Source: a virus. Taken from it: a stretch of DNA of 23,469 nt. Position numbers and translations under genes: made by a program. Shown in pieces: positions 576 through 13,829 of the stretch. The stretch lies in IMG/VR virus record IMGVR_UViG_3300007276_000316, positions 1 through 23,469 of that record; one strand, given 5' to 3'. Numbering within the stretch: position 1 is the stretch's first letter; each line of letters begins with the position of its first letter. The notes under the pieces were generated by a model. That model saw only the letters and a program-made list of their open reading frames with translations, ran no database searches and was not told where the DNA came from.

Positions 576-992
576 TTAAAATAATCTCCACACTTTCCAA
601 CCGACTAATGCGGCTAGTGTTACTATTATAATATACCACCATGCCCAGGAAGGCGTTTTATATACTATTATTGTTTCCACGCTTGTAACCTCTTTAATCA
701 CTTCCTTGTCTACGTAAACGATTGAGTCGGTCTTTGATTGTACAAATAATTGATTGTCTTTTACGGTTACCGTTGTCTTTCCGTTTCCGTTGTCTATGGT
801 CTGGGTAAACTCTTTTGGTTTTCCTATTGAATCGCATAGTGTAGATATTTGCAATGTGTTCTTGGATTCTAATATGATATTCCTAACGGTTGAATCTTTT
901 ACCTTTTCTACGTATGTACTTTGCTTTTTTGCTTTGCAACCAAACAAAAAAAATACCAATAAGTAAAATAACACTACTTTAAATTTATTCAT
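576..992 (-). CDS. Candidate unimolecular spanin (lipoprotein with C-terminal TM)
   Basis: A 138-aa protein begins MNKFKVVLFYLLVFFLFGC, a lipoprotein signal with lipobox LFGC and Cys19 as the lipidated residue. A hydrophilic, Thr/Lys/Val-rich segment of about 95 residues follows, then a single C-terminal membrane segment (about 117-135, WAWWYIIIVTLAALVGW) with a short basic tail WRLF. An outer-membrane lipid anchor plus an inner-membrane C-terminal helix is the architecture of u-spanins such as T1 gp11 (131 aa), which fuse inner and outer membranes in the last step of lysis. I chose the ATG at 992 over an in-frame ATG at 1034 because 992 puts the signal peptide at the N-terminus and matches an 8-nt overlap with the upstream small ORF. 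A holin candidate and M15 peptidase lie upstream on the same strand. The topology is direct reading; the function is inferred. Confidence 0.72.
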   Translation of the reverse strand: MNKFKVVLFYLLVFFLFGCKAKKQSTYVEKVKDSTVRNIILESKNTLQISTLCDSIGKPKEFTQTIDNGNGKTTVTVKDNQLFVQSKTDSIVYVDKEVIKEVTSVETIIVYKTPSWAWWYIIIVTLAALVGWKVWRLF

Positions 993-1137
993 CGTTTCTA
1001 TCTTTAACGCACACACAAGACGCACACTTGACATTGTACTTATTACAGTATATTATACCTATGTCGCTTTGTTGGCTCTTAGTTCCTACGGCTGTACCGT
1101 TTCTAAGGCAATTTGAAAAGTATTGTCTAAAAGTCAT
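985..1137 (-). CDS. Small Cys-rich protein, 50 aa
   Basis: The ORF runs from the ATG at 1137 to a TAA overlapping the spanin start by 8 nt (the TAA lies inside ATGAATAAA), which suggests translational coupling. The product has five cysteines, Cys10, Cys31, Cys38, Cys41 and Cys43, with the last three in KCASCVC. That spacing could hold a metal ion, but no known zinc-finger pattern fits cleanly. It has no signal peptide or membrane segment. It is preceded by an AT-rich leader with no SD. The function is unknown. The coupling to the next gene is the best argument that it is translated; the short length leaves real doubt. Confidence 0.5.
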   Translation of the reverse strand: MTFRQYFSNCLRNGTAVGTKSQQSDIGIIYCNKYNVKCASCVCVKDRNDE

Positions 1138-1836: not shown

Positions 1837-1998
1837 CTAGTTACCTACATTAATAGAGTTATCTAATACTTCAATTAAATGTCTGATTTCACTTCTTTCA
1901 AATCTACCTGTTAAAGCTTCTTTGTAAGTGCTAATATTTAAATCGTAGTAATCTTCTTTGTTTGGTACTTCTGTGCAGATTATTTTTTTTAAATCCAT
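1837..1998 (-). CDS. Small hypothetical protein, 53 aa
   Basis: The ORF is ATG at 1998 to TAG at 1837-1839. The product is mixed charged and soluble, starting MDLKKIICTEVPNKEDYYDL and ending in a likely amphipathic helix (RFERSEIRHLIEVLDNSI). I recognise no domain. It has no membrane segment or signal. The sequence has typical host-like codon use and a proper acidic/basic balance, which favours a real gene, and it fills an otherwise empty 295-nt gap between two same-strand genes. The function is unknown. Confidence 0.5.
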   Translation of the reverse strand: MDLKKIICTEVPNKEDYYDLNISTYKEALTGRFERSEIRHLIEVLDNSINVGN

Positions 1999-2066
1999 TG
2001 CTTATTGTTTTAATTTTAAGCAATTTACAAAAAATAACTATAAGTATTAAAATAAATGTGAATTAT

Positions 2067-2300
2067 TTAGTCGGTAAAACCAAAACCAGATAGCATTAAG
2101 TCAACCTTTATATCTATTTCTTCTTGTATAATAGAACAATATTCGTATAATTCCCTAACTTCAAAAGCTTTTAGCGTTTCTCTAAGGTCGTTAATAGTAC
2201 CACCTCTTAACCATATTCTAAAAGCCTCTTCTTCTGGAAAGTTCTTCATAAACATAATAGGGTCAATTAAATGTTCGTACTCTTCATCTATTGGTATCAT
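2067..2300 (-). CDS. Small acidic hypothetical protein, 77 aa
   Basis: The ORF starts at an ATG overlapping the stop of the upstream M15 peptidase gene by 4 nt (ATGA), so the two are probably translated as a coupled pair. The protein is strongly acidic and mostly helical (FPEEEAFRIWLRGG, then LRETLKAFEVRELYEYCSII). It has no signal or membrane helix and no catalytic motif I recognise. The coupling suggests a partner or modulator of the endolysin, but this is inference from position only. Confidence 0.65.
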   Translation of the reverse strand: MIPIDEEYEHLIDPIMFMKNFPEEEAFRIWLRGGTINDLRETLKAFEVRELYEYCSIIQEEIDIKVDLMLSGFGFTD

Positions 2301-2839
2301 ATCTTTATAGCTTTTTCAAAGTGCATTGTGTCGTAGTTTTTCTCTTTACCTAGATTAAGAAATCCGTACTTTTCAAAGATTCTAAACATCTCTTTATATT
2401 CAGTATTAGAAAACTTAGCCTTTTTAAATGGTGTTCTTAAACCGTTTCTTTCAGGGTCTAAATCAATCGCTATTCCCCAACTATGTCTTGACCAATCTGA
2501 ACCGCCTCGCATTTTCCTAAAGTTGAAACACCCGCCAAATAAATCTATACCTAATTGTTGTATCTTAATTATACCGTACGCCTCTTGTAGTTCGTAGAAT
2601 ATATTTAAGAAATCAGCAGCAACAGATTTGTGACACCTCATTTTATTTACAACAATATCAGTATCCCAAGATAAACGCATTGGATAAGGTAATTGAATTG
2701 TAGCAAGATAATCAGGGTTTTCTTGTGGGTTTCCATATATACGCTTTAATTCACTTGTAGTGGCAAACCTATATTTAGGTTCGTCTACTATTGGATTGCT
2801 ATCCAAAAACCATTTAATAAAAGGTGGTATGTATCTCAT
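2297..2839 (-). CDS. M15-family peptidase, phage endolysin
   Basis: The 180-aa protein carries the zinc peptidase signature of the VanY/L-alanyl-D-glutamate peptidase family: SRHSWGIAIDLDP (His119, Asp126) and the C-terminal DTMHFEK (His173). In this family these three are the zinc ligands, and the enzyme cuts peptide crosslinks or stems of peptidoglycan. There is no signal peptide, so release through a holin is expected. The length matches single-domain phage M15 endolysins, with an extra ~100-residue N-terminal part that may help wall binding. It overlaps the next gene by 4 nt and lies about 2.3 kb downstream of the holin candidate, with two structural genes and a PAS-like gene between. The family call is firm; exact bond specificity is not readable. 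Confidence 0.88.
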   Translation of the reverse strand: MRYIPPFIKWFLDSNPIVDEPKYRFATTSELKRIYGNPQENPDYLATIQLPYPMRLSWDTDIVVNKMRCHKSVAADFLNIFYELQEAYGIIKIQQLGIDLFGGCFNFRKMRGGSDWSRHSWGIAIDLDPERNGLRTPFKKAKFSNTEYKEMFRIFEKYGFLNLGKEKNYDTMHFEKAIKI

Positions 2840-2855
2840 TTACCTATATTTTAAT

Positions 2856-4148
2856 TTATCTTTCTTCAATAGACCAATCTGAATCTAATTCTAAAGTGCA
2901 ATCACCTACACCTGTTTTATTTGTTACTTTCCAATATACAAAATCATTTTGATTTAATGTTACCCTAAATTTAGAGTTAAAGTAAGCAACATCACGACCT
3001 CCAGCCTGATTTGCAATTCTTCTTAATTGAGTATTTACAACCGTTTCAGAACCTCCACTATCTTTAATTAATGATATTAAATATTCTTCGTTTGCAGTTC
3101 CCTCTAAAATGAAATTAAACAACACCCCAAAATCTCTTGGTGTATTACCTAAGTGCCTTAATTTACCATCGCTTGGGGAATCAAAATGCTGTAGGTCTGT
3201 ATTAACAAAAGAACCATTTAAAGTATATGCTGTATCAGTTAAAGCTATTGAAGTTAAAACCTCGGCTGATAGGTCTGAAATACCACCCACATAAGTATTA
3301 AACAATCCATTGTTTCCTTTCCACTCACAAGATAAATCACTTGCAGATATATTAGGTGTTAAATTAGCATCTTCTGAATCGTAAACCCCATCCCTGGTTA
3401 ATTCCACTCCTTTTAATTGTAGTGTGCTTGGATTAGGAAAGTTAGCAGGAGAAAAATTTAATAAAGGTTGTAATGTTCCTAAATCACAATTAATATCACT
3501 TAAAAATCTGCTATTCATCTGAAAGGCTGTGCCTTCCTTAAATAAAGGTTCTGTCGTTGTATCGCTTAAACTACGTACTATACTTGTAGCTATTCTATAA
3601 CCACCTCTCCAAAGACCATGCAAAGTTAAAGAAGGAGAACCGCCAAACCTACCAGTACCATTCTCTAATCCCTGTCTGTAGTTAAATATATCACCTAATG
3701 AAGTACAATTAATATAGTTTATCCTAACGAACTCAAAAGCATTAAATCCCGTATCATCATATAGCTCATATACCTTAGAATTTGTACCTGTCACCTCTAT
3801 GAAGTAATCCAAACCTAATAGATTCCCAGAACCATTACCATCTCCACCTGTTGATGCAGATATAAACATAGTGTAGTTATTAGCAGAAGATGTTAGCCCA
3901 GATATGTCAAAAGAATAACCTTTTAATGTCATACCAGTAGCAGGTACTGTTATTTGAGTTGTACCTATATCTATAATACCATCAATAAAATATTCTTTAG
4001 TTGAGTCTATTACACCTCCTAAAGTAGTAGCTACGTTATCTTGGTTTACTATAACTCTTTTAAGAAAACCACCACTAGCGTCTGTATAAACACTTATAGC
4101 TACATTTTCCGTAACCTCACTTACTGTAATACTTACTATTTCTGCCAT
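2856..4148 (-). CDS. Putative tail fibre or spike protein, beta-rich
   Basis: The 430-aa protein is rich in Gly, Asn, Ser and Thr with short alternating hydrophobic stretches, as in beta-structured phage fibre proteins. The N-terminal 65 residues (SITVSEVTENVAISVYTD, then GFLKRVIVNQDN) look like a compact virion-attachment segment. The centre (STKEYFIDGIIDIGTTQITV, TGMTLKGYSFDISGL) resembles turns of a parallel beta-helix, and the C-terminal ~90 residues (RRIANQAGGRDVAYF, FVYWKVTNKTG) look like a separate trimer-forming or binding domain. There is no signal peptide, unlike the three adhesin genes upstream. Its ATG overlaps the stop of the preceding gene by one base (TAATG). No enzymatic motif is seen. 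A structural role is well supported by context; host-receptor binding is inference. Confidence 0.62.
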   Translation of the reverse strand: MAEIVSITVSEVTENVAISVYTDASGGFLKRVIVNQDNVATTLGGVIDSTKEYFIDGIIDIGTTQITVPATGMTLKGYSFDISGLTSSANNYTMFISASTGGDGNGSGNLLGLDYFIEVTGTNSKVYELYDDTGFNAFEFVRINYINCTSLGDIFNYRQGLENGTGRFGGSPSLTLHGLWRGGYRIATSIVRSLSDTTTEPLFKEGTAFQMNSRFLSDINCDLGTLQPLLNFSPANFPNPSTLQLKGVELTRDGVYDSEDANLTPNISASDLSCEWKGNNGLFNTYVGGISDLSAEVLTSIALTDTAYTLNGSFVNTDLQHFDSPSDGKLRHLGNTPRDFGVLFNFILEGTANEEYLISLIKDSGGSETVVNTQLRRIANQAGGRDVAYFNSKFRVTLNQNDFVYWKVTNKTGVGDCTLELDSDWSIEER

Positions 4149-4486
4149 TATGTAGTTATATCTTTAAGGATTAATATTTGTCCTGCAATCCATGTTTTAA
4201 CATCGCCATTAGTAAAAGTAAATTCTATATCATAATTAGCTACACCATAATAACGGCTAATCTTAAAAGTTTGTATGGTAAAACCGTTAGTACCATCTAA
4301 TACTATACCATTACCTATTGATAGCTCTTTTAATAAATCACCTCCAGAACTTTGTATATGCATTTTTATTGCAACACCTGTTAAATCTATATCTACGCCA
4401 TCTATTGTTATAGGCTTAAATGTTTTAGCAAGAAAAGTATCTCCTCTTGTTTCGTTTTCCCAATTATATGTAGCTGGTATACTCAT
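4148..4486 (-). CDS. Small Ig-like baseplate or fibre-adaptor protein
   Basis: The 112-aa protein has the pattern R-GDTF near the start (residues 14-18), then DLTGVAIKMHIQS and a terminal run of beta strands (YDIEFTFTNGDVKTWIAGQI). This resembles the N-terminal Ig-like domain of BppU-type upper baseplate proteins, a domain often used to plug a fibre into the virion. It directly precedes the 430-aa fibre-like gene with a one-base overlap, which fits an adaptor or chaperone for that protein. The resemblance is by eye; no homology search was possible. Confidence 0.5.
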   Translation of the reverse strand: MSIPATYNWENETRGDTFLAKTFKPITIDGVDIDLTGVAIKMHIQSSGGDLLKELSIGNGIVLDGTNGFTIQTFKISRYYGVANYDIEFTFTNGDVKTWIAGQILILKDITT

Positions 4487-4501
4487 TTTTATATTATTTA
4501 A

Positions 4502-5068
4502 TTATAATTCAGTTTGTACCCCGTAAAGATACGTTCTTTCATTCTTTTTTACAATCCATTTAGCAAATCTACCTATACCCATATGTCCTTCTTTATTAAT
4601 ATAACGCTCAAAAAAGAATCTTACGGTTGGGCTTTTTAATGTTTCTCTATTATTTTCAGCCCATTCTTCACCAATATCACCCGAAACTTCTTGTGTCGTC
4701 TTTGCGAAATAATTACCAGGCTTATTGCCGTAAACCTCTTCATAGGCTTTATTAAACTTAACCATCCTAAAATCTTCAATAGCTTCATCATAAATTAAAT
4801 ACCATAACGGCAATTTAATATCATTTATATTATAGCTATCCATGCTTAAAGTTATAAGCACATTATTATAGGTGTTCATTAAATCATCATTTTCATCTCT
4901 TCGCTCGCTTAAAGAAGATTCTAATAAATCATTTAATGCTACTTCTGTTAAATATAAATGTCGATAATCTAAACTTTTATACGTTAGCAATCCAAAGCTA
5001 AATACTTGCGCTATACTCCTTGTATTTTTAACTATTAAAGCGTAAATTTTGCTTATTTGTATACCCAA
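4502..5068 (-). CDS. PAS-domain-like protein beside the holin
   Basis: The 188-aa protein has a C-terminal half (about 82-186) that matches a PAS fold in order: LPLWYLIYDEAIEDFRMVKF (first strands), NKAYEEVYG (the classic helix, residues 106-114), NRETLKSPTVRFFFERYINK (connecting helix and strand) and KEGHMGIGRFAKWIV followed by TYLYGVQTE (last strands). PAS domains bind small ligands, haem or flavin, or mediate dimerisation. There is no kinase, cyclase or DNA-binding domain. Residues 5-30 are moderately hydrophobic but broken by Lys14, Asn15 and Arg17, so a membrane anchor is uncertain; residues 40-75 are helical. Its position just downstream of the holin candidate in a late operon is odd for a sensor. 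The PAS call is by pattern; lysis-timing or redox sensing would be speculation. Confidence 0.62.
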   Translation of the reverse strand: MGIQISKIYALIVKNTRSIAQVFSFGLLTYKSLDYRHLYLTEVALNDLLESSLSERRDENDDLMNTYNNVLITLSMDSYNINDIKLPLWYLIYDEAIEDFRMVKFNKAYEEVYGNKPGNYFAKTTQEVSGDIGEEWAENNRETLKSPTVRFFFERYINKEGHMGIGRFAKWIVKKNERTYLYGVQTEL

Positions 5069-5153: not shown

Positions 5154-5399
5154 TTATTTACTATTCATCCACTTGTTTACAACCATTTTAACGCCTTCAA
5201 TCGCTAACAACAAAGAAAGACAGCTAAGCATAACCCAACCATCGTTAGAATCAAGGTAAACAGGTTCTTTATTAATTACAGGTAATATAATCCTGTAAAT
5301 CATATAAAACATAAGCGTAACCCATGCCATTAAACGAAGTGCTAACCTAATCCAATAGTTAATTGATTTTTCGCTTATAAACTCTTTTATCTCTCCCAT
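5154..5399 (-). CDS. Holin candidate, two transmembrane segments
   Basis: The 81-aa protein has a polar N-terminus (GEIKEFISEKSINYW), a first hydrophobic helix at about 16-42 (LALRLMAWVTLMFYMIYRII), a short loop with PVYLDSNDG, a second helix at about 55-72 (WVMLSCLSLLLAIEGVKMVV) and a basic C-terminus (NKWMNSK). The size and two-helix topology fit a class II-type holin, which makes the inner-membrane lesion that lets the endolysin out. The late position, with an M15 endolysin and a spanin candidate downstream, supports this. No family-specific motif is visible, so another small phage membrane protein remains possible. Confidence 0.62.
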   Translation of the reverse strand: MGEIKEFISEKSINYWIRLALRLMAWVTLMFYMIYRIILPVINKEPVYLDSNDGWVMLSCLSLLLAIEGVKMVVNKWMNSK

Positions 5400-5412: not shown

Positions 5413-6915
5413 TTAAAGTTTATATTTAGTTGTTCCCAAGTAAAAATATGGCGTTATTGTTGTGCCTATTCTAAATTTTTTTGGATTTATAGAAGTTGAT
5501 GCCGTTAGTGTCCAACTACCATCTGGTACTTCTATGCCTGCTATCATCATATCAAAATCTTTTGCTAAATAGTTTAAATACATTTCAAGATTAGTATAAC
5601 CCGCAGTATTAGTTACGTTTGTTAATCCATCAAATACCCAATTAAGTTTGGTGTCATTTCTATCCGTAGCAAGATTTTTATCTAATCCATGTAAATCTTC
5701 AAAAGCATCGCTCATACCATCGTCATCAGTATCAGTAGGATAAGTTCCACTAGCTAAAGTTGGTAAAGTTCCATCAGTAACATAAGTACCCGTTCTACCT
5801 ACAAAATCAGATACCATAGATGCATCATGTGTATCTCTTTTGCTATCAAACCAAAAAGCACCTAAATATGGAAGTATATCTGTTTCTAAATCAGTAGCGT
5901 TTAAAAGTTGCCCATTTGCCGAAGTATAATCTGTTGCCACTAAAGCAGATGTTTCAATATAAGAGGTTAAGGCTGTTTGAATATTCCCAGGATCAAATTC
6001 ATTTACATTACCATCTAAAAAAGCATAAGTGTTTGCTGCTGTACCCGTACCATCAGACTCCCCTCTTATCATTTCGTTAAACGTAGGTGTAACCCCATCA
6101 GAATCGGTTAATATGTTGTTCAAAGCTGTGAATCTTGCTCCCAAACTTGGACTAATTGGAGGAGACACATGTCCATGCATGATATTATTAATAGATTCAA
6201 ACCCTATTAAGGAAGTTGGTATTGAATCGGGGTAGTTGTATCTTGGACTTCGTTGATTTGATAAAGCAAACATATTTCTAAGTAATGAAACACTATGCCC
6301 ATCTTTAAATATTAATATATTTCTATCTACTTCTCCCAATATGGAATATTGAACCGTTGTATTATAACTTTCATTAGTATCTTTACCTGAAATCTCTATA
6401 TTCATTTCGGTAGGGTCAGCCCATGAAAAAGAGCAATGGTCGATAAAATTATTAACATTATCTACTGCATTTGCATATATTCTTAATTGACTTCTTGCAC
6501 CCGCAGTCCCTCTAAATCTTAAATGCCGCCATATAGTATTACCCGTTCTTAATTCATTGCCGCCCGTCGTGCTATAAACAGCAACACCATCTCCTGGTGC
6601 TGATTGCCCCGCAATAGTAACATCCCCATTTTCCGCAAACATTACCGTTTCATAGTCTATATTACCACCTACTTCAAAAATTATTGTTCTTGCACCGCTT
6701 TCTACATCATAACCTTGTTTAAAAGAACCCGAACCACTCGCATTCGTATTTGTAACCTTGTAAACAGTTCCACCCCTACCACCGCTTGCGTAACGACCAA
6801 AGCCATGAGCAATAGGCGATGCCTTTAATTCAGTTAAATTAATAGTTGGTAATGTAGGGTCTTGACTTATTACCAAGGTCGAAAATAAAAGTGTTATGTA
6901 TATAAATATTCTCAT
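5413..6915 (-). CDS. Secreted-type pectate lyase-like beta-helix protein, probable tail depolymerase
   Basis: The 500-aa protein starts with a Sec signal peptide (residues 1-17, cut before Gln18). Residues 37-260 match the pectate lyase 1 pattern: HGFGRYASGGRGG (37-49), IAGQSAPGDG (101-110), WRHLRFRG (129-136), NNFIDHCSFSW (155-165), TVQYSILGE (187-195) and RNMFALSNQRSPRYN (213-227), where Arg222 and Arg225 sit where the catalytic arginine is expected. About 394-413 is a calcium-type repeat (DTDDDGMSDAFEDLHGLD), and YTNLEMYLNYL follows. The C-terminus (FRIGTTITPYFYLGTT) resembles short ladder motifs found in phage tail proteins and not a T9SS sorting domain. It overlaps the upstream gene by 4 nt. 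The likely role is cleavage of an acidic polysaccharide on the host surface. The signal peptide is the oddity. Confidence 0.8.
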   Translation of the reverse strand: MRIFIYITLLFSTLVISQDPTLPTINLTELKASPIAHGFGRYASGGRGGTVYKVTNTNASGSGSFKQGYDVESGARTIIFEVGGNIDYETVMFAENGDVTIAGQSAPGDGVAVYSTTGGNELRTGNTIWRHLRFRGTAGARSQLRIYANAVDNVNNFIDHCSFSWADPTEMNIEISGKDTNESYNTTVQYSILGEVDRNILIFKDGHSVSLLRNMFALSNQRSPRYNYPDSIPTSLIGFESINNIMHGHVSPPISPSLGARFTALNNILTDSDGVTPTFNEMIRGESDGTGTAANTYAFLDGNVNEFDPGNIQTALTSYIETSALVATDYTSANGQLLNATDLETDILPYLGAFWFDSKRDTHDASMVSDFVGRTGTYVTDGTLPTLASGTYPTDTDDDGMSDAFEDLHGLDKNLATDRNDTKLNWVFDGLTNVTNTAGYTNLEMYLNYLAKDFDMMIAGIEVPDGSWTLTASTSINPKKFRIGTTITPYFYLGTTKYKL

Positions 6916-7430
6916 AATTCTGTTATTGTAATAAGGTCAAATTGTGCTTTAAGACCTGCCCCCACATTAGTAGATGCGTAAAATCTCATTGTTACGGTTG
7001 TAGATGTAGCTTCGATTGTACCCGTAGCTTCTTCCCAAGTTGTAGAGTAAAAATATGTAGGAGAAGTAACCACACCTAACCACGATTTTATGGATGCTTG
7101 ACCACCCGTTAGTTCTCTACCCCAAATAGAATAAGAGTAAACAGTACCTATAGTTGCTGTAAAAGTAAAAATAGCCCTATCATTTGAACCCTCTAAAGAT
7201 GTTACCTCAATAACATTTGAACCACCACCAGGAGGAGTGTCTGTTGCTACCCATGAAACCGTAGTATCGGATTCGTTTGACCAACCCGAAGAACTTGCAA
7301 CATCATCTGAACTTGCGGCATTGCCTAATGGATAGAGATTTGTTACAGGTACGTCAAATCTATAGGAATCAATTATTAATTGACCGTAAGAAAATGAACT
7401 TATAAATAGTATTAAAATAAATCTAATCAT
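6912..7430 (-). CDS. Carbohydrate-binding-like beta-sandwich protein with signal peptide
   Basis: The 172-aa protein opens with a signal peptide (MIRFILILFISSFSYG, cut before Gln17). The rest is a beta-sandwich pattern of the CBM or galactose-binding type: a loop with SGWSNESDTTVSW, a strand FTFTATIGTVYSYSIWGREL, and a closing strand FDLITITEL. Overlaps of 8 nt with the upstream adhesin and 4 nt with the downstream lyase mean the three proteins are probably made together. A sugar-binding partner of the lyase-like protein is the simplest reading. The fold call is by strand pattern and composition only. Confidence 0.58.
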   Translation of the reverse strand: MIRFILILFISSFSYGQLIIDSYRFDVPVTNLYPLGNAASSDDVASSSGWSNESDTTVSWVATDTPPGGGSNVIEVTSLEGSNDRAIFTFTATIGTVYSYSIWGRELTGGQASIKSWLGVVTSPTYFYSTTWEEATGTIEATSTTVTMRFYASTNVGAGLKAQFDLITITEL

Positions 7431-9051
7431 AGTAAACTTTTAGTATTAATTGCGCTCCAGTAGCTGATGTTGGTACGGCATCAATATCAAATAAAAATTT
7501 ATCACCTCTTACAAACGTATAAGAAGAAAGAACAAAGTCTGTGGTTGCTGTATCACTACTAGGCTCGGTTGCATCTGTTGTTACATTAGTGGTTGCTATG
7601 TCAGCACCATTTTTATTAATATCTATATTTATCCCAGTAGCAGTTCCAGAAACATCCAAAACAATCGCTATACCATCATTTGCAGGGCTTTCTATAGTTC
7701 CATCAGCAGGTGCAATCCACATACCATTCTTAGTTCCTGTTGTTAATGTAGTTGATAAATCACTTAATGCTACTTGTATATATTTATAATCTTTTGCATC
7801 CGTTGGTATTGCTAATCTACCTGCATCCGCAGCCCATCCCTCAATATTTGCAGTTGTTCCCGTTACAATATTAGTAATAGCACCCGCTCCAGTAAGCCCT
7901 GTTATATCTGAATCTACACCACCACCAGAACCTAACATATCAACACCACCATAGGTTAAAGTAGTAGGTGTTGCAACTATTGATTTATCTGTGCCTGTTG
8001 CAAAATCAAAGTTTAGATTTATAATATTATCATCCGTTCCATTATGTTCTCTAAATGTTACATTTTCTCCTATATATCCATTACCTTCAGCCGCCCCTAC
8101 CACATTGCTTAATGTTTCAAACCAAGTTCTGCCGCTACTATCTTGCACTTCAATAGAACCACTTGCCCCACTTGATATTGTTCTAGTTGTTGAAGATGGT
8201 ATAGCCTGATTTGCTTTTTCTAAACTTAGATTTTCAGCTAATGCACCCTCAACATCTGTAGCAGTATAATTGCCCCCTGCATCTGTTATAGTCACCTCTG
8301 TTGCTGTTTGAATTTCATTAGTAACACTTCCATCAACTTCAATAAAAGATTGCAATGCCGTATCTGCTAAATCTAAACTTGCATTAACACTTACATCTAA
8401 ATCTAATTCGTCTACCGTTCCGTTTAGTATTTGAGTAGTTGTAATTTCACCAGTACCCACAACCGCCTCGTCTCTCACCTCTTGTATAGCTAATTGAGTA
8501 GTAATTGCGGCTATATCTCCATTAGGTGTAAAAGGTACTTCTGCGGCTGTTTGGTCGTCTGTTCCTATATCCTGTAAATCAAAAGTAAGACCTGATTGTG
8601 CATTTATGTATTTTAATTTATTACCATCCGATTGGTCATTAAATAATGTATTGGCATTTCCATTATTATCATTAAATTCAATAAAAGCATCTCCAGGTGT
8701 TGCATCGGGTCTTTGTAGCTGAATATTCCAAGCTGAAATTTCATTATTAGCACTAAAACTATCTACATTGGTTATAGATTGATTACCCGCATCACTACCA
8801 CTTGTTAATACTTCTGAAAGTGTTGGTGTTGAACCACCAAAAGCAGTCCAAACGTCATCACTTCCTGATGTTTCATATTGGCTTGTAGTTACATTGTAAA
8901 TTATCCAATTTTGACCTACAGGCACATCAAAAGTATCTCTTATAGCTGTAGTTACTTCACCCCTAAATTTAAGTGCATCAATTAAAGACCCACCTTGCCC
9001 GTAAGACAAAGCACCTACAAATAAAGATATTATTATAATTAATTTTTTCAT
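7423..9051 (-). CDS. Tail fibre/adhesin protein with signal peptide
   Basis: The 542-aa protein begins MKKLIIIISLFVGALSYGQ, a clear Sec signal peptide. Residues about 24-75 (ALKFRGEVTT, then VGQNWIIYNVTTSQYETSG) match the N-terminal module common in Bacteroidota phage fibres. The middle is a long Asp/Thr/Asn-rich region, with segments such as TDAGGNYTATDVEGALAENL that resemble repeated phage fibre units. The C-terminal ~125 residues (YIQVALSDLSTTLTTGTKNG, GINIDINKNGADI, FVRGDKFLFDIDAV) match a beta-sandwich domain found in many phage virion proteins. There are almost no cysteines. It overlaps the 57-aa membrane ORF upstream by 4 nt. The virion role is inferred from domains and position; the signal peptide conflicts with normal cytoplasmic assembly. 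Confidence 0.72.
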   Translation of the reverse strand: MKKLIIIISLFVGALSYGQGGSLIDALKFRGEVTTAIRDTFDVPVGQNWIIYNVTTSQYETSGSDDVWTAFGGSTPTLSEVLTSGSDAGNQSITNVDSFSANNEISAWNIQLQRPDATPGDAFIEFNDNNGNANTLFNDQSDGNKLKYINAQSGLTFDLQDIGTDDQTAAEVPFTPNGDIAAITTQLAIQEVRDEAVVGTGEITTTQILNGTVDELDLDVSVNASLDLADTALQSFIEVDGSVTNEIQTATEVTITDAGGNYTATDVEGALAENLSLEKANQAIPSSTTRTISSGASGSIEVQDSSGRTWFETLSNVVGAAEGNGYIGENVTFREHNGTDDNIINLNFDFATGTDKSIVATPTTLTYGGVDMLGSGGGVDSDITGLTGAGAITNIVTGTTANIEGWAADAGRLAIPTDAKDYKYIQVALSDLSTTLTTGTKNGMWIAPADGTIESPANDGIAIVLDVSGTATGINIDINKNGADIATTNVTTDATEPSSDTATTDFVLSSYTFVRGDKFLFDIDAVPTSATGAQLILKVYYD

Positions 9052-9221
9052 ATTACTTTATCACCGTTTATAACTATTTTACCTTCTCTATTCCTTATTA
9101 AAATGCCTTTGTCTGTGTATTCTATTTTAGGCATAGATTCTAAATTTACCTTATTCTTTTTGTATATTATTACATTTAATACCAAAAAAAATAATCCTAT
9201 TATTATTTCTAAGTATATCAT
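9048..9221 (-). CDS. Small single-pass membrane protein, 57 aa
   Basis: The ORF starts at an ATG overlapping the stop of the upstream gene (ATGA, 4 nt) and ends in a TGA overlapping the adhesin start by 4 nt. Residues 2-20 (IYLEIIIGLFFLVLNVIIY) form one membrane helix followed by KKNK, which suggests a cytoplasmic C-terminal part. Residues 32-57 (KIEYTDKGILIRNREGKIVI) form a small beta-hairpin-like domain. The double overlap makes it very likely a translated gene. Its place just ahead of three signal-peptide adhesins suggests a role in their handling at the membrane, but this is inference. Confidence 0.7.
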   Translation of the reverse strand: MIYLEIIIGLFFLVLNVIIYKKNKVNLESMPKIEYTDKGILIRNREGKIVINGDKVI

Positions 9222-9565
9222 AATGCAGCAGTCGTTTCTATGAAGTTTAAGAACTTTGTGGAATCTCTTAAATCAGAAGGATATGTATCACAAACACCTA
9301 TAGCCATGCCCATAATCATTAATTTATCCGTTCTGCTTATAAAAATTAATATATCTCCATCTTGTGCTATTCGACCAACACCACCTTCTTTATCTTTTCT
9401 AAATATTATAATTTCCGTATCTGATACAGTAGACCTTATTGGTAAATGAGGATTATTAAATAAAACAGATGCAGCCATTTTGTAAGAAGCCAAATCCCTT
9501 ACAATATGTACGGTATCTGTACTTCTTGACTCTGTAGTCAAACCCGTTCTTTCGCTTAATTTCAT
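9218..9565 (-). CDS. Hypothetical tail-region protein, 115 aa
   Basis: The protein starts MKLSERTGLTTESRSTDTVH and continues through strand-rich stretches (TEIIIFRKDKEGGVGRIAQD, DILIFISRTDKLMIMG) to a helical end (STKFLNFIETTAAL). It has no signal peptide, membrane helix or catalytic motif. It lies 3 nt after the second tail-tube paralogue and overlaps the next small membrane ORF by 4 nt. From position it may be a baseplate or fibre-attachment component. I do not recognise the family. Confidence 0.6.
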   Translation of the reverse strand: MKLSERTGLTTESRSTDTVHIVRDLASYKMAASVLFNNPHLPIRSTVSDTEIIIFRKDKEGGVGRIAQDGDILIFISRTDKLMIMGMAIGVCDTYPSDLRDSTKFLNFIETTAAL

Positions 9566-10102: not shown

Positions 10103-10125
10103 CAAAGATAATAAATTATATCTAT
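10103..10125 (-). promoter_or_regulatory. Late promoter element P4, before second tube paralogue
   Basis: On the minus strand the element carries ATAGATA at its upstream end and TATCTTTG at its downstream end, the latter matching the Bacteroidota -7 box TAnnTTTG. The last G lies 25 nt before the start codon at 10078. It differs from the element at 14964-14986 by one base in 23. Its upstream end overlaps the stop codon of the tail hub gene. Confidence 0.78.
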
Positions 10126-12020
10126 CCTTTAATGGTAGGCTTGACAGTATTTCCATAATCAATCTCGTATTCATACTCTATATCAATTATTTCTTCCGTA
10201 TAGCCTTGTAGGTTAGTTAGGGTTGTTATATTTGAGAGTGTATCATAAGAGTAATATGTAGGCATAAAATCACCTGTAACCCCGCTTATTTGTATTTTTG
10301 ATAAGTAAGGTATATAACCGTAAACATCACCTGTAAATACCGTTTGAACGCCTGAATATAATCTTATTCTTTCTTCTGCTGTTAATTGTAATAAAGGCTT
10401 AGATTCTGCTACAAAATCCCTAGTCCAAAGGTTTGTTAGCGTTTCTCCATCTTCTTTATAAATACTACCTTCATAAATATTAGCTTCGTTATCACCGTTA
10501 TAAACTTCTAATACATCATCTACCCTATTACTTTTACTTATTGTTCTTTGTACTGAATGAAATTCACCATTTATTGAATTATCTTTAGATGGATACACCT
10601 TAAAGCTCTTTATTAAGGCTAAATTAACGGTTGCCACATAATCTCTAGGTTGCATAATAGTAACAGATAAAGTACCATCACCATACATTGCAGGAGTATT
10701 AATAGTAAAGTTATTTTCTGTATCAACATTAGCTCTTACACCTGTTAAATATATTATTTCATCACCTGTTCCAGATGCAATCCATCCGTTCTCTACGTCC
10801 AAATAATAAACAGCTCCTCCCGTATTTAGATATATTTTTACAAGAAAGGAATCAACAAACTTCTTTAAAATAGTGTCTATTTCAATGGTTAAAAATGTTC
10901 CTGCTATTACATCTATGTTATCAGATAAAAGAATAGATAAAGGCGTGTCACCTGCATAAATATCATCTGCGCCCCTGTAGCTTTTAAACGATAAATAATT
11001 AGCACCCTCGTAGGCTGTAAAACTAACTAATGTATCATCTAAATAACTCCAGCCCTCAATAGTGCCAGGGTCACCTAAAGCACCAACTAGCCTCATTTTT
11101 TCATTAACAAATACACTACCTACTAAACCATACTTGTAGTTAATCTTGAAACCTGCTAAACTGTTTCTTCGTTCTTTCCTTTGGTTAGCGTTACAATGAA
11201 ATAATGTAGCACCGTTTATTTGGCTTCCTATTTCAGTTAGCGTAGATATTGACCTAGTTTTCCTAAGCGTAGCGACACCTAAATAAGTGTATTCAAAGAA
11301 GGTAACTCCATCACTAGACCTAAGTATGTCAGAAGACTTAAATACCCACCATTCACCGTTCATTTGACAAATAGAGGCATTAAAGATATTTAGTATAGAT
11401 TCTAAAACCTCTTTACAGTCCATTATAGTATCATCATCCTCTCTAAAAAATCTTTCGGTTATAATACGTAATTCAGTAAGTATATTTATATCACCGAAAA
11501 CATCACTATCAACAAATCCATCGTATCTAAAATCTACATTGGTATTTATATTTAATTGTAAGCCTGTTCTTATTAAACAATTAGATATGATTTCTAACGG
11601 TGATTGTTTGCCTAAATATGGTAAGCCTGTTTCGTCAACATAGGAAAGGTTTTCTAAGTAACCTAGACCACCCGTAACAGATACATCCATTGCCCACCTA
11701 TCATTAACCCAATCTTCGTATATTCCTTCGGGGCTAATAAAGCCGACAAATATAATTACAGCATCCCTATATAAAGTTGTTTTATATACCCTTTCGTTTT
11801 CAGTCGCTAAATCATCAAAATTAAGGTCAATAGAAGCGTCTAACCGCATAACCATACCACAACCCCTAATAGGTGTAAAATGGTTTTGAACGTCAGCATA
11901 TTCTAATGTACAACGTCCATTTATTTCAGTAGATGCGCCTGCAAAAGAATCGCTTTCTATTTCACATCGATATTCGATATTCGTAGTATCAAAGTATTCA
12001 AAGAAATATTTTAAAGCCAT
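10122..12020 (-). CDS. Tail hub/baseplate structural protein
   Basis: The 632-aa protein follows the tape measure gene with no gap (TAA then ATG). It starts MALKYFFEYFDTTNIEYRCE and contains strand-rich segments such as WAMDVSVTGGLGYLENLSYV and ASICQMNGEWWVFKSSDI. In long-tailed phages the gene just after the tape measure usually encodes the distal tail or tail-associated hub protein, and the starting segment is a pattern I know from Bacteroidota phage tail proteins. No lysozyme or peptidase motif is visible. The structural role is well supported by position; the split between Dit-like and Tal-like functions cannot be read. Confidence 0.7.
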   Translation of the reverse strand: MALKYFFEYFDTTNIEYRCEIESDSFAGASTEINGRCTLEYADVQNHFTPIRGCGMVMRLDASIDLNFDDLATENERVYKTTLYRDAVIIFVGFISPEGIYEDWVNDRWAMDVSVTGGLGYLENLSYVDETGLPYLGKQSPLEIISNCLIRTGLQLNINTNVDFRYDGFVDSDVFGDINILTELRIITERFFREDDDTIMDCKEVLESILNIFNASICQMNGEWWVFKSSDILRSSDGVTFFEYTYLGVATLRKTRSISTLTEIGSQINGATLFHCNANQRKERRNSLAGFKINYKYGLVGSVFVNEKMRLVGALGDPGTIEGWSYLDDTLVSFTAYEGANYLSFKSYRGADDIYAGDTPLSILLSDNIDVIAGTFLTIEIDTILKKFVDSFLVKIYLNTGGAVYYLDVENGWIASGTGDEIIYLTGVRANVDTENNFTINTPAMYGDGTLSVTIMQPRDYVATVNLALIKSFKVYPSKDNSINGEFHSVQRTISKSNRVDDVLEVYNGDNEANIYEGSIYKEDGETLTNLWTRDFVAESKPLLQLTAEERIRLYSGVQTVFTGDVYGYIPYLSKIQISGVTGDFMPTYYSYDTLSNITTLTNLQGYTEEIIDIEYEYEIDYGNTVKPTIKG

Positions 12021-13829
12021 TTATCCTAAACTTAAATTACCGCCTAATCTTGCGTTTGCTCCTAACGTTCTGTTAAGTACCCCTACTAATTTTTGTCCTT
12101 GTATTTCAAATACTACCGTACCGCCTGATGAGTTTGACGCTCCAAAGTTAGAACCGCTATTAGATATATTACCTCCTGTTCCTTGACCTGCTACGCTTGA
12201 TGCTGAGCCGCTAAATCCAGTAACTCCAGCTGCACCACCACTTGCAGCCGATGAAAAAGCAGAACCTATTGCAGATATCGCTATACCTGCCGCTATTGCC
12301 GCTAATCCCGCACCTATCGCTACTGGTCCGCCTGCTAATATTGCTAAATCTAACTTACCTTTTAATACAGCTAAAGTTCCGTACTCAATAAGCAAACCAC
12401 CCATTTTAGATAAGAAAGAACCTATACCCGCTATTATCGTTTGACCTATAGCAGCGAATACATTACCACCTTGTATTAAAGATTCACCAATAGCAGCACC
12501 TAGTTGTTTAAACGTATCAGATAAGCTGCCCTCAATAAGAATACCTAAGTTAGTGTCAAATTCAATCATGAATTTTTCTATCTCGGATAAATAAGCCTTT
12601 ATAGGTTTTGCGCCGTCTTGCAATCCTTGATTTATTCCGCTACCTATCTTTAAACCAGCATCTAAGGCTTTTTGCTGTAATAAACCCTGTGCCTCTGGTG
12701 TAATTGCAAAAGCCTCTGCAAGAAAAGCATCACCAAATTTGTATTTACCAAATTCAGATTTTAACTTATCTGTGTCTATCTTTAGTTTGATTTCAGGCTC
12801 AACATCCACCTCTATGTTAGCCGTTAACCTAGCCGCTTCTGCTCCGATTGTTCCTAATTGACCTTGTAGCTTAGTTTGTTCTTCAAGTAAATTATTAACC
12901 TTTGAAACTTCTTCTGTATATCCTTTTGCGGCTGGATTAATTCCAAATAAATACGCTTGTTGAGTGCTTTTATTGAATTTATCCCTAGCTTTGCCTCTTT
13001 CCCTGTCGTTAGCCGCTATCTTAGAATTAATATCATCTAACTGTTGATTTACAGTTATTTCTTTTCTAGCGTTCTCTATTAATAGATTAGATACAGCAGT
13101 AGCTTTTGCTCTCTTTATTATAGATGTGGTTAACTTATCATAAGTACCTTGTAAAGTACCGTTTAATAACCCTTCATCTCTTACATCTTGAAAGTATGCA
13201 GGAAACTCTTTTCTAAGTTTCTTAATACCATCCTTTCTCTCTTCTTGCGAAAGGTTAGTATCTTCTATTTGATTTTTAAGCAACCTAAGTTTAACAAGTT
13301 CTTCTGCGGCTGAACGATTACCCTCTAATCTAGCCTTATTAACACCCGATAAAGATTCTCTATAATCATCTAATCCTTTAGCTAAATCCTTTTGTGCCTT
13401 TGCTAGTTTTTCGGTTGCCGTTAAAGATTTTCCTAATCCTTCGTTAGCAAAATATGTTAATGCAGACGTTACAACAGAAACCGCAAGTAATACACCTGCT
13501 GGTCCTGCTAAAGACGAAACCATTAACTTTAAAGCGTTCTTAGCCCCTCCAGCACTTGTAACTAGATATCCAAAATTACTAGTAAGTTGCTGAATGTTGT
13601 TAGCTACACCCTGTATTCCGAAAGGCGCATCTTGTATTACCCTAGAAAATTCAGTAACAGCAGGAACAGCATTTGCAGCTCCTTTGCCAACGGTCTTAAA
13701 TCCTTTAGCTCCTTTCTTACCGCCTTTGTCGGCAACGTCGCCAAACTCATCTAATGACTTTTTAGCCCTCTTTAGATTATCTTCTAGGTCTTTTATATTT
13801 GCCGATAACTTTACTTCTAATTCAGTCAT
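12021..13829 (-). CDS. Tail tape measure protein
   Basis: The 602-aa protein has the classic layout: a charged helical N-terminus (ELEVKLSANIKDLEDNLKRA), a Lys/Gly-rich stretch (GGKKGAKGFKTVGKG), a membrane-like helix at about 108-127 (AGPAGVLLAVSVVTSALTYF), long charged helices rich in Lys, Glu and Asp, and Gly/Ala-rich hydrophobic segments near the C-terminus (AIGAGLAAIAAGIAISAIGS). It sets tail length and is ejected with the DNA. At about 1.5 angstrom per residue it predicts a tail near 90 nm. It overlaps the chaperone frame by 8 nt. No peptidoglycan-cutting domain is visible. Confidence 0.9.
   Translation of the reverse strand: MTELEVKLSANIKDLEDNLKRAKKSLDEFGDVADKGGKKGAKGFKTVGKGAANAVPAVTEFSRVIQDAPFGIQGVANNIQQLTSNFGYLVTSAGGAKNALKLMVSSLAGPAGVLLAVSVVTSALTYFANEGLGKSLTATEKLAKAQKDLAKGLDDYRESLSGVNKARLEGNRSAAEELVKLRLLKNQIEDTNLSQEERKDGIKKLRKEFPAYFQDVRDEGLLNGTLQGTYDKLTTSIIKRAKATAVSNLLIENARKEITVNQQLDDINSKIAANDRERGKARDKFNKSTQQAYLFGINPAAKGYTEEVSKVNNLLEEQTKLQGQLGTIGAEAARLTANIEVDVEPEIKLKIDTDKLKSEFGKYKFGDAFLAEAFAITPEAQGLLQQKALDAGLKIGSGINQGLQDGAKPIKAYLSEIEKFMIEFDTNLGILIEGSLSDTFKQLGAAIGESLIQGGNVFAAIGQTIIAGIGSFLSKMGGLLIEYGTLAVLKGKLDLAILAGGPVAIGAGLAAIAAGIAISAIGSAFSSAASGGAAGVTGFSGSASSVAGQGTGGNISNSGSNFGASNSSGGTVVFEIQGQKLVGVLNRTLGANARLGGNLSLG

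Follow-up and report, generated by a model that had tools for sequence, protein, structure and literature searches.

The assembly of tailed phages is taught as a process confined to the cytosol until lysis. Here we analyze a complete IMG/VR record (IMGVR_UViG_3300007276_000316), a fragment of 23,469 bases from an uncultivated siphophage of marine bacteria, hereafter called the window, in which three overlapping genes behind the tail genes encode an adhesin, a putative carbohydrate-binding protein and a pectate-lyase-like depolymerase, each starting with a predicted Sec signal peptide. The filamentous phage M13 already offers examples of virion proteins that pass through the export machinery and signal peptidase of the host; however, its pIII and pVIII are assembled in the inner membrane during extrusion, rather than being added to a tailed, lysis-released particle as proposed below.

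In the host Bacteroidetes, about 71% of the substrates of signal peptidase I (SPI) have Gln at position +1 (Bochtler 2018, PMC5837995), and replacement of this Gln reduces protein levels (PMC10653852). Such Q-rule substrates share with the window proteins a signal peptide, a small residue at −1 and Gln at +1, but they are cellular proteins, and phages are absent from the text of the former paper. Phage genes with Q-rule signal peptides have been described in Nixviridae phages of Porphyromonas gingivalis (PMC10367356), where they have no assigned function, are read as host-surface modifiers and are not tied to virion proteins. The lyases of phages Nekkels and Ingeline, which belong to the same protein families and the same module as that of the window, were mentioned in passing as “also carrying signaling peptides” (PMC8776804), with no link to virion assembly or to neighbouring fibre genes. 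In Cellulophaga phage phi10:1 (Assiduviridae, KC821618), gp087–gp095 encode, in the same order as in the window, a tape measure, a tail-tip protein, small tail proteins, signal-bearing adhesins and a signal-bearing pectate lyase, with a homologous N-domain of the first adhesin, a carbohydrate-binding module (CBM)-like domain and the lyase. It differs from the window in having five signal-bearing genes instead of three and no 57-aa transmembrane gene, and the signals are unmentioned in its record. The fibres of Flavobacterium phage 11b (gp45–46) and phi18:1 (gp60–61) occupy the same tail position, and the adhesin body of 11b gp46 is common to signal-bearing relatives, but they are fused to or start with cytosolic anchor domains and have no signal peptide. 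No paper connecting Q-rule signals with the virion proteins or the tail assembly of tailed phages was found in the literature searched, which left most subscription journals outside its coverage. The parts are already known; what is new is the proposed export route and a rule by which adhesins are either fused or exported.

Signal peptides of three overlapping genes

The module lies on the minus strand, as does every real gene of the window. It consists of the genes for a 542-aa adhesin (7423..9051), a 172-aa protein with a CBM4/22-like domain (6912..7430) and a 500-aa PL1-type pectate-lyase-like protein (5413..6915), the first two overlapping by 8 nt and the last two by 4 nt. Their predicted signal peptides are encoded at 8998..9051, 7383..7430 and 6865..6915, and the N-termini read MKKLIIIISLFVGALSYG|QGGS, MIRFILILFISSFSYG|QLII and MRIFIYITLLFSTLVIS|QDPT, respectively, where the bar marks the predicted cut before Gln. 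The calls were made by a rule-based script that looks for a basic n-region, an uncharged 8-residue hydrophobic core, small residues at −3 and −1 and Gln at +1 (a signal peptide of this kind is termed SP-Q below). The basic n-region, the uncharged core, the small −1 residue and the Gln are present in all three proteins, which are the only SP-Q calls among the 29 genes of the window; the sole other envelope signal called is that of a lipoprotein/spanin-like gene (576–1034). When the N-terminal residues of each protein were shuffled, 1.0, 0.54 and 0.54% of the shuffles passed as SP-Q (jointly about 3e-7). The next in-frame starts, TTG15 and GTG43 in the 542-aa protein, GTG120 in the 172-aa protein and TTG14 and ATG92 in the 500-aa protein, were rejected as usable alternatives, being either within the signal or so distant that some of the mature protein is lost. 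The caller, the shuffles and the start survey thus bear out the initial annotation, which had assigned Sec signals with cut sites before Gln to all three proteins; its coordinates, strand and overlaps, as well as the 4-nt coupling to an upstream 57-aa gene, are confirmed in the sequence, and no better downstream start was found for any of the three genes. Export by the type IX system was rejected, as a search with NCBIfam matched no type IX C-terminal sorting domain in the 10 proteins examined, and the proteins should therefore remain periplasmic until lysis.

The functional labels given earlier to the three proteins also hold, the proteins being a fibre with a conserved N-domain, a provisional CBM4/22-like jelly roll and a PL1-type pectate lyase; Pfam assigned no family to any of them. 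The 542-aa protein is 45% identical to phi10:1 gp091 over 74 residues spanning the signal and the conserved mature N-terminal domain (FRGEVTTAIRDTFDVPVGQNWIIYNVTT..W), and in a loose alignment a similar pattern, TTA.RD...P..G..iYN.TT...W, starts the mature first adhesin in several other phages. For the 172-aa protein, a match to the C-terminal portion of phi10:1 gp094 was obtained (2e-10), and its weak model, with a predicted local distance difference test (pLDDT) score of only 55, resembles CBM4-type modules (Foldseek 1e-5, TM 0.55); the jelly roll and putative carbohydrate binding are assigned provisionally. For the 500-aa protein, which corresponds to phi10:1 gp095 and to the lyase domains in phi39:1 gp26 and phiSM gp09, the PHROG pectate lyase family (5e-28), a sequence match to 9buj (1e-14), a Foldseek structure match from a low-confidence model (2.8e-6) and a predicted right-handed beta-helix with the motif DHCSFSW all point to a PL1-type pectate-lyase relative and putative polyuronate depolymerase.

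Signal-bearing proteins annotated in virions

Do proteins with such signals reach the virion? The five consecutive genes gp091–gp095 of phi10:1 each start with SP-Q, and gp091–gp094 are annotated in the GenBank record as “structural protein, experimental MS/MS proteomics” (MS/MS, tandem mass spectrometry). Two of these, gp091 and gp094, are the homologues of the 542-aa and 172-aa window proteins. The same combination of a signal and an MS/MS annotation is found in phi39:1 gp25 and gp26 (the latter a pectate lyase), phiSM gp08, phi19:1 gp101–104 (gp104 without Gln) and phi18:3 gp85–87. Altogether, 14 of the 81 MS-annotated proteins of six phages are signal-bearing, membership being that of record annotation, with some annotation notes incomplete, and not of spectra; they always come from contiguous tail-fibre genes. 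The five positive phages differ in family and gene order (Assiduviridae, Pachyviridae and a sheath-bearing phage); the sixth, phi18:1, has no such protein, and its fibres start without signals. The predicted mature N-terminal peptides are QTTDVVK (phi10:1 gp091), QTVEGTVGSDGSLIPYNVSGGLDETAVDTK (gp094), QVEQVEAVVLAK (phi39:1 gp25), QNPTSFR (phiSM gp08) and QVLVPENTGYGYDNLTTVQLNALTK (phi18:3 gp85). The window module sits directly behind the tail-tip genes, as in phi10:1-type modules, and the signal-less 115-aa tail protein encoded close by (9218..9565) is about 40% identical to the MS-annotated phi10:1 gp090. By record annotation, the export signal and virion membership coexist in the proteins of the five phages. 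A lipoprotein reading of phi19:1 gp101 and Nekkels gp53 was rejected as an artefact, since an early LLSC precedes INA|Q.

The initial annotation had considered a set secreted to act outside the virion. The three proteins would then be exported by the infected cell and would bind and cut polysaccharides of the capsule or matrix that surround the host or debris, or else coat the surface, their detection in virions being due to co-purification. Among the enzymes that Bacteroidota secrete, a PL1-like lyase and a CBM-like protein are typical, phi10:1 gp095 and phiSM gp09 are without MS annotation, and Q-rule proteins of Porphyromonas phages have been interpreted as modifiers of the host surface (PMC10367356). 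However, there are 14 signal-bearing MS/MS virion proteins in five phages of different families, the pectate lyase phi39:1 gp26 among them, the adhesin bodies are interchangeable with anchor-fused fibres (see below), and a type IX domain for leaving the cell before lysis is missing. We consider a free secreted set unlikely, though it is the main rival of the route proposed below; it concerns above all the lyase.

Near-identical signals and N-terminal modules are seen in phi10:1 gp093/gp094 (L001 13254–16545) and phi13:2 gp086/gp087 (L007 11160–15474), a likeness between Assiduviridae and Pachyviridae suggesting that modules for exported adhesins have recently crossed between the two families.

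Conservation of Gln at the cut site

Over all loci, 45 distinct tail proteins bear a signal, and 43 of them have Gln at +1. This count leans on a Gln-preferring caller, but Gln-less rivals are few; phi19:1 gp104 lacks the Gln, the case of L032 is ambiguous, and non-credible calls (e.g., MLKKRTRLSEMEAIALGLA) had been excluded by eye. The hydrophobic cores diverge while the signal and the Gln persist, which is best explained by real cutting with SPI, under selection. If the signal were uncut, the hydrophobic N-terminus would be kept as a docking or trimerisation segment, or merely associate with the membrane, and assembly would be cytosolic. Virion detection itself would fit this, and short hydrophobic N-termini can be structural, but a near-invariant Gln after a small residue has no purpose in an uncut segment, and a signal-less homologue (in L025, described below) starts near the mature residue, which makes it an improbable solution.

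Another suggestion made earlier was that the signals are relics of host genes; taken as functionless leftovers of recently acquired genes for secreted enzymes, it draws on the relationship of the lyase to bacterial PelZ/PL1 enzymes, the NCBIfam profile match extending over the signal region. It is disfavoured to the point of being very improbable: the diverged signals keep their function, with Gln at +1, in dozens of phages and belong to virion proteins in five, the operon position is common and the overlaps are identical in the closest relative, and the signal, although easily lost (L025), is missing from only 1/16 separate adhesins. Dual targeting, in which one share is exported for surface masking, superinfection block or matrix lysis at release and the other avoids export and joins particles within the cytosol, would make secretion compatible with presence in virions, and the signals are short; as the start survey of the three genes revealed no internal-start feature and the conservation of Gln points to efficient processing, we hold it to be distinctly improbable.

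SP-Q genes of 90 aa or more number 0–1 in phages that lack the module (B124-14, 11b, phi18:1, the first half of crAss001, FCL-2 and phi14:2), and such signals are therefore no general feature among phages of Bacteroidota. The single SP-Q gene of Flavobacterium phage FCL-2 (L110 45363–45806; 147 aa, QVGIATTTPTETLDVNGTARVR) lies away from the tail genes.

Adhesins occur fused to an anchor or with an export signal

With an alignment of the 632-aa tail-tip protein as a signal-independent query, 68 environmental tail loci were found, 66 of which were used. Downstream of the tail-tip gene, 37 of 604 open reading frames (ORFs) carry SP-Q, as against 0/757 upstream (Fisher 5e-14) and 2/685 on the opposite strand. 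Many of the loci encode an anchor domain (RVGELP..HEVG), and a profile of it was used to split the complete loci. Large adhesins fused to the cytosolic anchor never bear a signal (0 of 20 loci); where the last anchor is a separate protein of 205–234 aa, the separate adhesin bears a signal in 15 of the 16 assessable loci (Fisher p = 3e-9), three further loci ending before the adhesin. The sole exception, L025, starts with MADAPNLQNPT where signal-bearing relatives read Q|TLQNPT, with a stop codon immediately before. The protein can therefore occur in both signal-bearing and signal-less form, and a natural start lies near its mature N-terminus. Across 243 aa, the signal-bearing adhesin of L068 and the fused, signal-less one of L075 share 78% identity, and L024 matches phage 11b gp46 along 352 aa. 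The same adhesin bodies interchange between signal-bearing separate and signal-less fused forms.

Downstream of the tail-tip gene in L062, L064, L068 and L071, the interval from the separate anchor to the signal-bearing adhesin holds several small unrelated genes and looks like a hot spot for insertions. A first prophage scan of genomes with alignment A1 found none; a second scan revealed three Chryseobacterium loci (L112–L114) with related tail loci and signal-less fibres, which are probably prophages and supply named hosts for this tail family. A lyase-bearing viral contig has four tandem SP-Q genes (L102 3184–7620), and L100 has three (1993–4689). Signal-bearing lyases are also encoded by the high-GC contigs L094 and L100; the latter has a GC content of 58.5%, and its host may lie outside the usual AT-rich flavobacteria.

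A possible route of tail completion

An outline of the route that we favour, with a probability of roughly 0.58, is as follows. The three proteins would be tail adhesin and depolymerase subunits of a flavobacterial siphophage that uses the host Sec pathway: expressed late, they would be exported and cut by SPI on the N-terminal side of the Gln, whose cyclisation to pyroglutamate by the host would protect them, and the mature adhesins would build up folded in the periplasm. Meanwhile the tail would be built in the cytosol as far as a docking protein that has no signal, in the window probably that of 115 aa. With adhesins in the periplasm and tails in the cytosol, the two could meet only once holin, endolysin and spanin open the envelope, and the adhesins would then bind to the tail via their conserved mature N-terminal domain. 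Of these elements, export and presence in virions have good support, and the cleavage itself, the pool in the periplasm and the docking at lysis are inferred. The unusual completion of tails, one of the options of the initial annotation, thus fits best, given the MS/MS-annotated homologues and the restriction of the signal to adhesins unfused to an anchor, with the docking step as its conjectural part.

Several points weigh against this route. The signal calls come from a rule-based script rather than from SignalP. The MS/MS support consists of record annotation, and co-purifying secreted proteins may contribute to it. Neither of the signal-bearing lyase counterparts, phi10:1 gp095 and phiSM gp09, is MS-annotated, and the lyase may for this reason act free in part. 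The docking partner (9218–9565) is proposed from synteny only, and we know of no tailed phage that adds Sec-exported subunits after lysis.

Such a route might bring oxidative folding, an early attack on capsule and debris, protection from binding too soon to glycans inside the cell, and adhesin cartridges that are easily exchanged. If it operates, the host-recognition parts have an oxidising space with chaperones in which to fold, can attack the envelope ahead of release and are common to every particle of a burst (phenotypic mixing), and the split, modular arrangement lets phages swap exported cartridges without fusion to a tail anchor. Annotators would also be warned that a signal peptide in a Bacteroidota phage is no proof of a non-virion secreted protein. 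Whether there is a whole class of tailed phages that finish their tails outside the cytosol, with Sec-exported, pyroglutamylated receptor-binding proteins and depolymerases self-assembling on released tails at lysis, is in our judgement evenly balanced. The phages of Cellulophaga baltica are harmless, cultured models already existing for this system.

Neighbouring genes of the window

Gene order starts with the terminase at 22.3 kb and continues with portal, protease, capsid and tail genes up to the 602-aa tape-measure-like protein (12021..13829), the positional counterpart of phi10:1 gp087. Then follow the 632-aa conserved tail-tip protein (10122..12020), tail proteins of 169 and 115 aa, a 57-aa single-transmembrane protein (9048..9221) overlapping each neighbour by 4 nt, the three signal-bearing genes and, in the same strand-wise block, lysis-type genes. 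The closest relative, L015, has the same layout with identical overlaps of 4, 4 and 8 nt.

Single-transmembrane proteins of 47–70 aa directly precede the first signal-bearing gene in L015, phi19:1 (gp100), Nekkels (gp52), phi18:3 (gp84) and phi13:2 (gp83), all five being positional counterparts of the 57-aa protein. The earlier suggestion that this protein belongs to the set gains from the recurrent position in six phages including the window and is weakened by phi10:1, which is without one. It perhaps holds the adhesin pool or the tail tip at the membrane.

Among the lysis-type genes, an 81-aa membrane protein (5154..5399) is a possible holin, judging from its hydrophobic stretches and position, an M15 peptidase without a signal peptide (2297..2839) is a probable endolysin, and a lipoprotein with a C-terminal transmembrane segment (576..1034) is unimolecular-spanin-like. 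After the module, a second fibre-like pair without signals (2856–4486; 112 aa, PHROG 1084, and 430 aa, PHROG 16509) is encoded, and the phage may thus have two kinds of receptor-binding apparatus. By eye, a 175-aa protein (1244–1771) seems to combine in one chain a GIY-YIG nuclease domain and a helix-turn-helix (XRE-like) domain.

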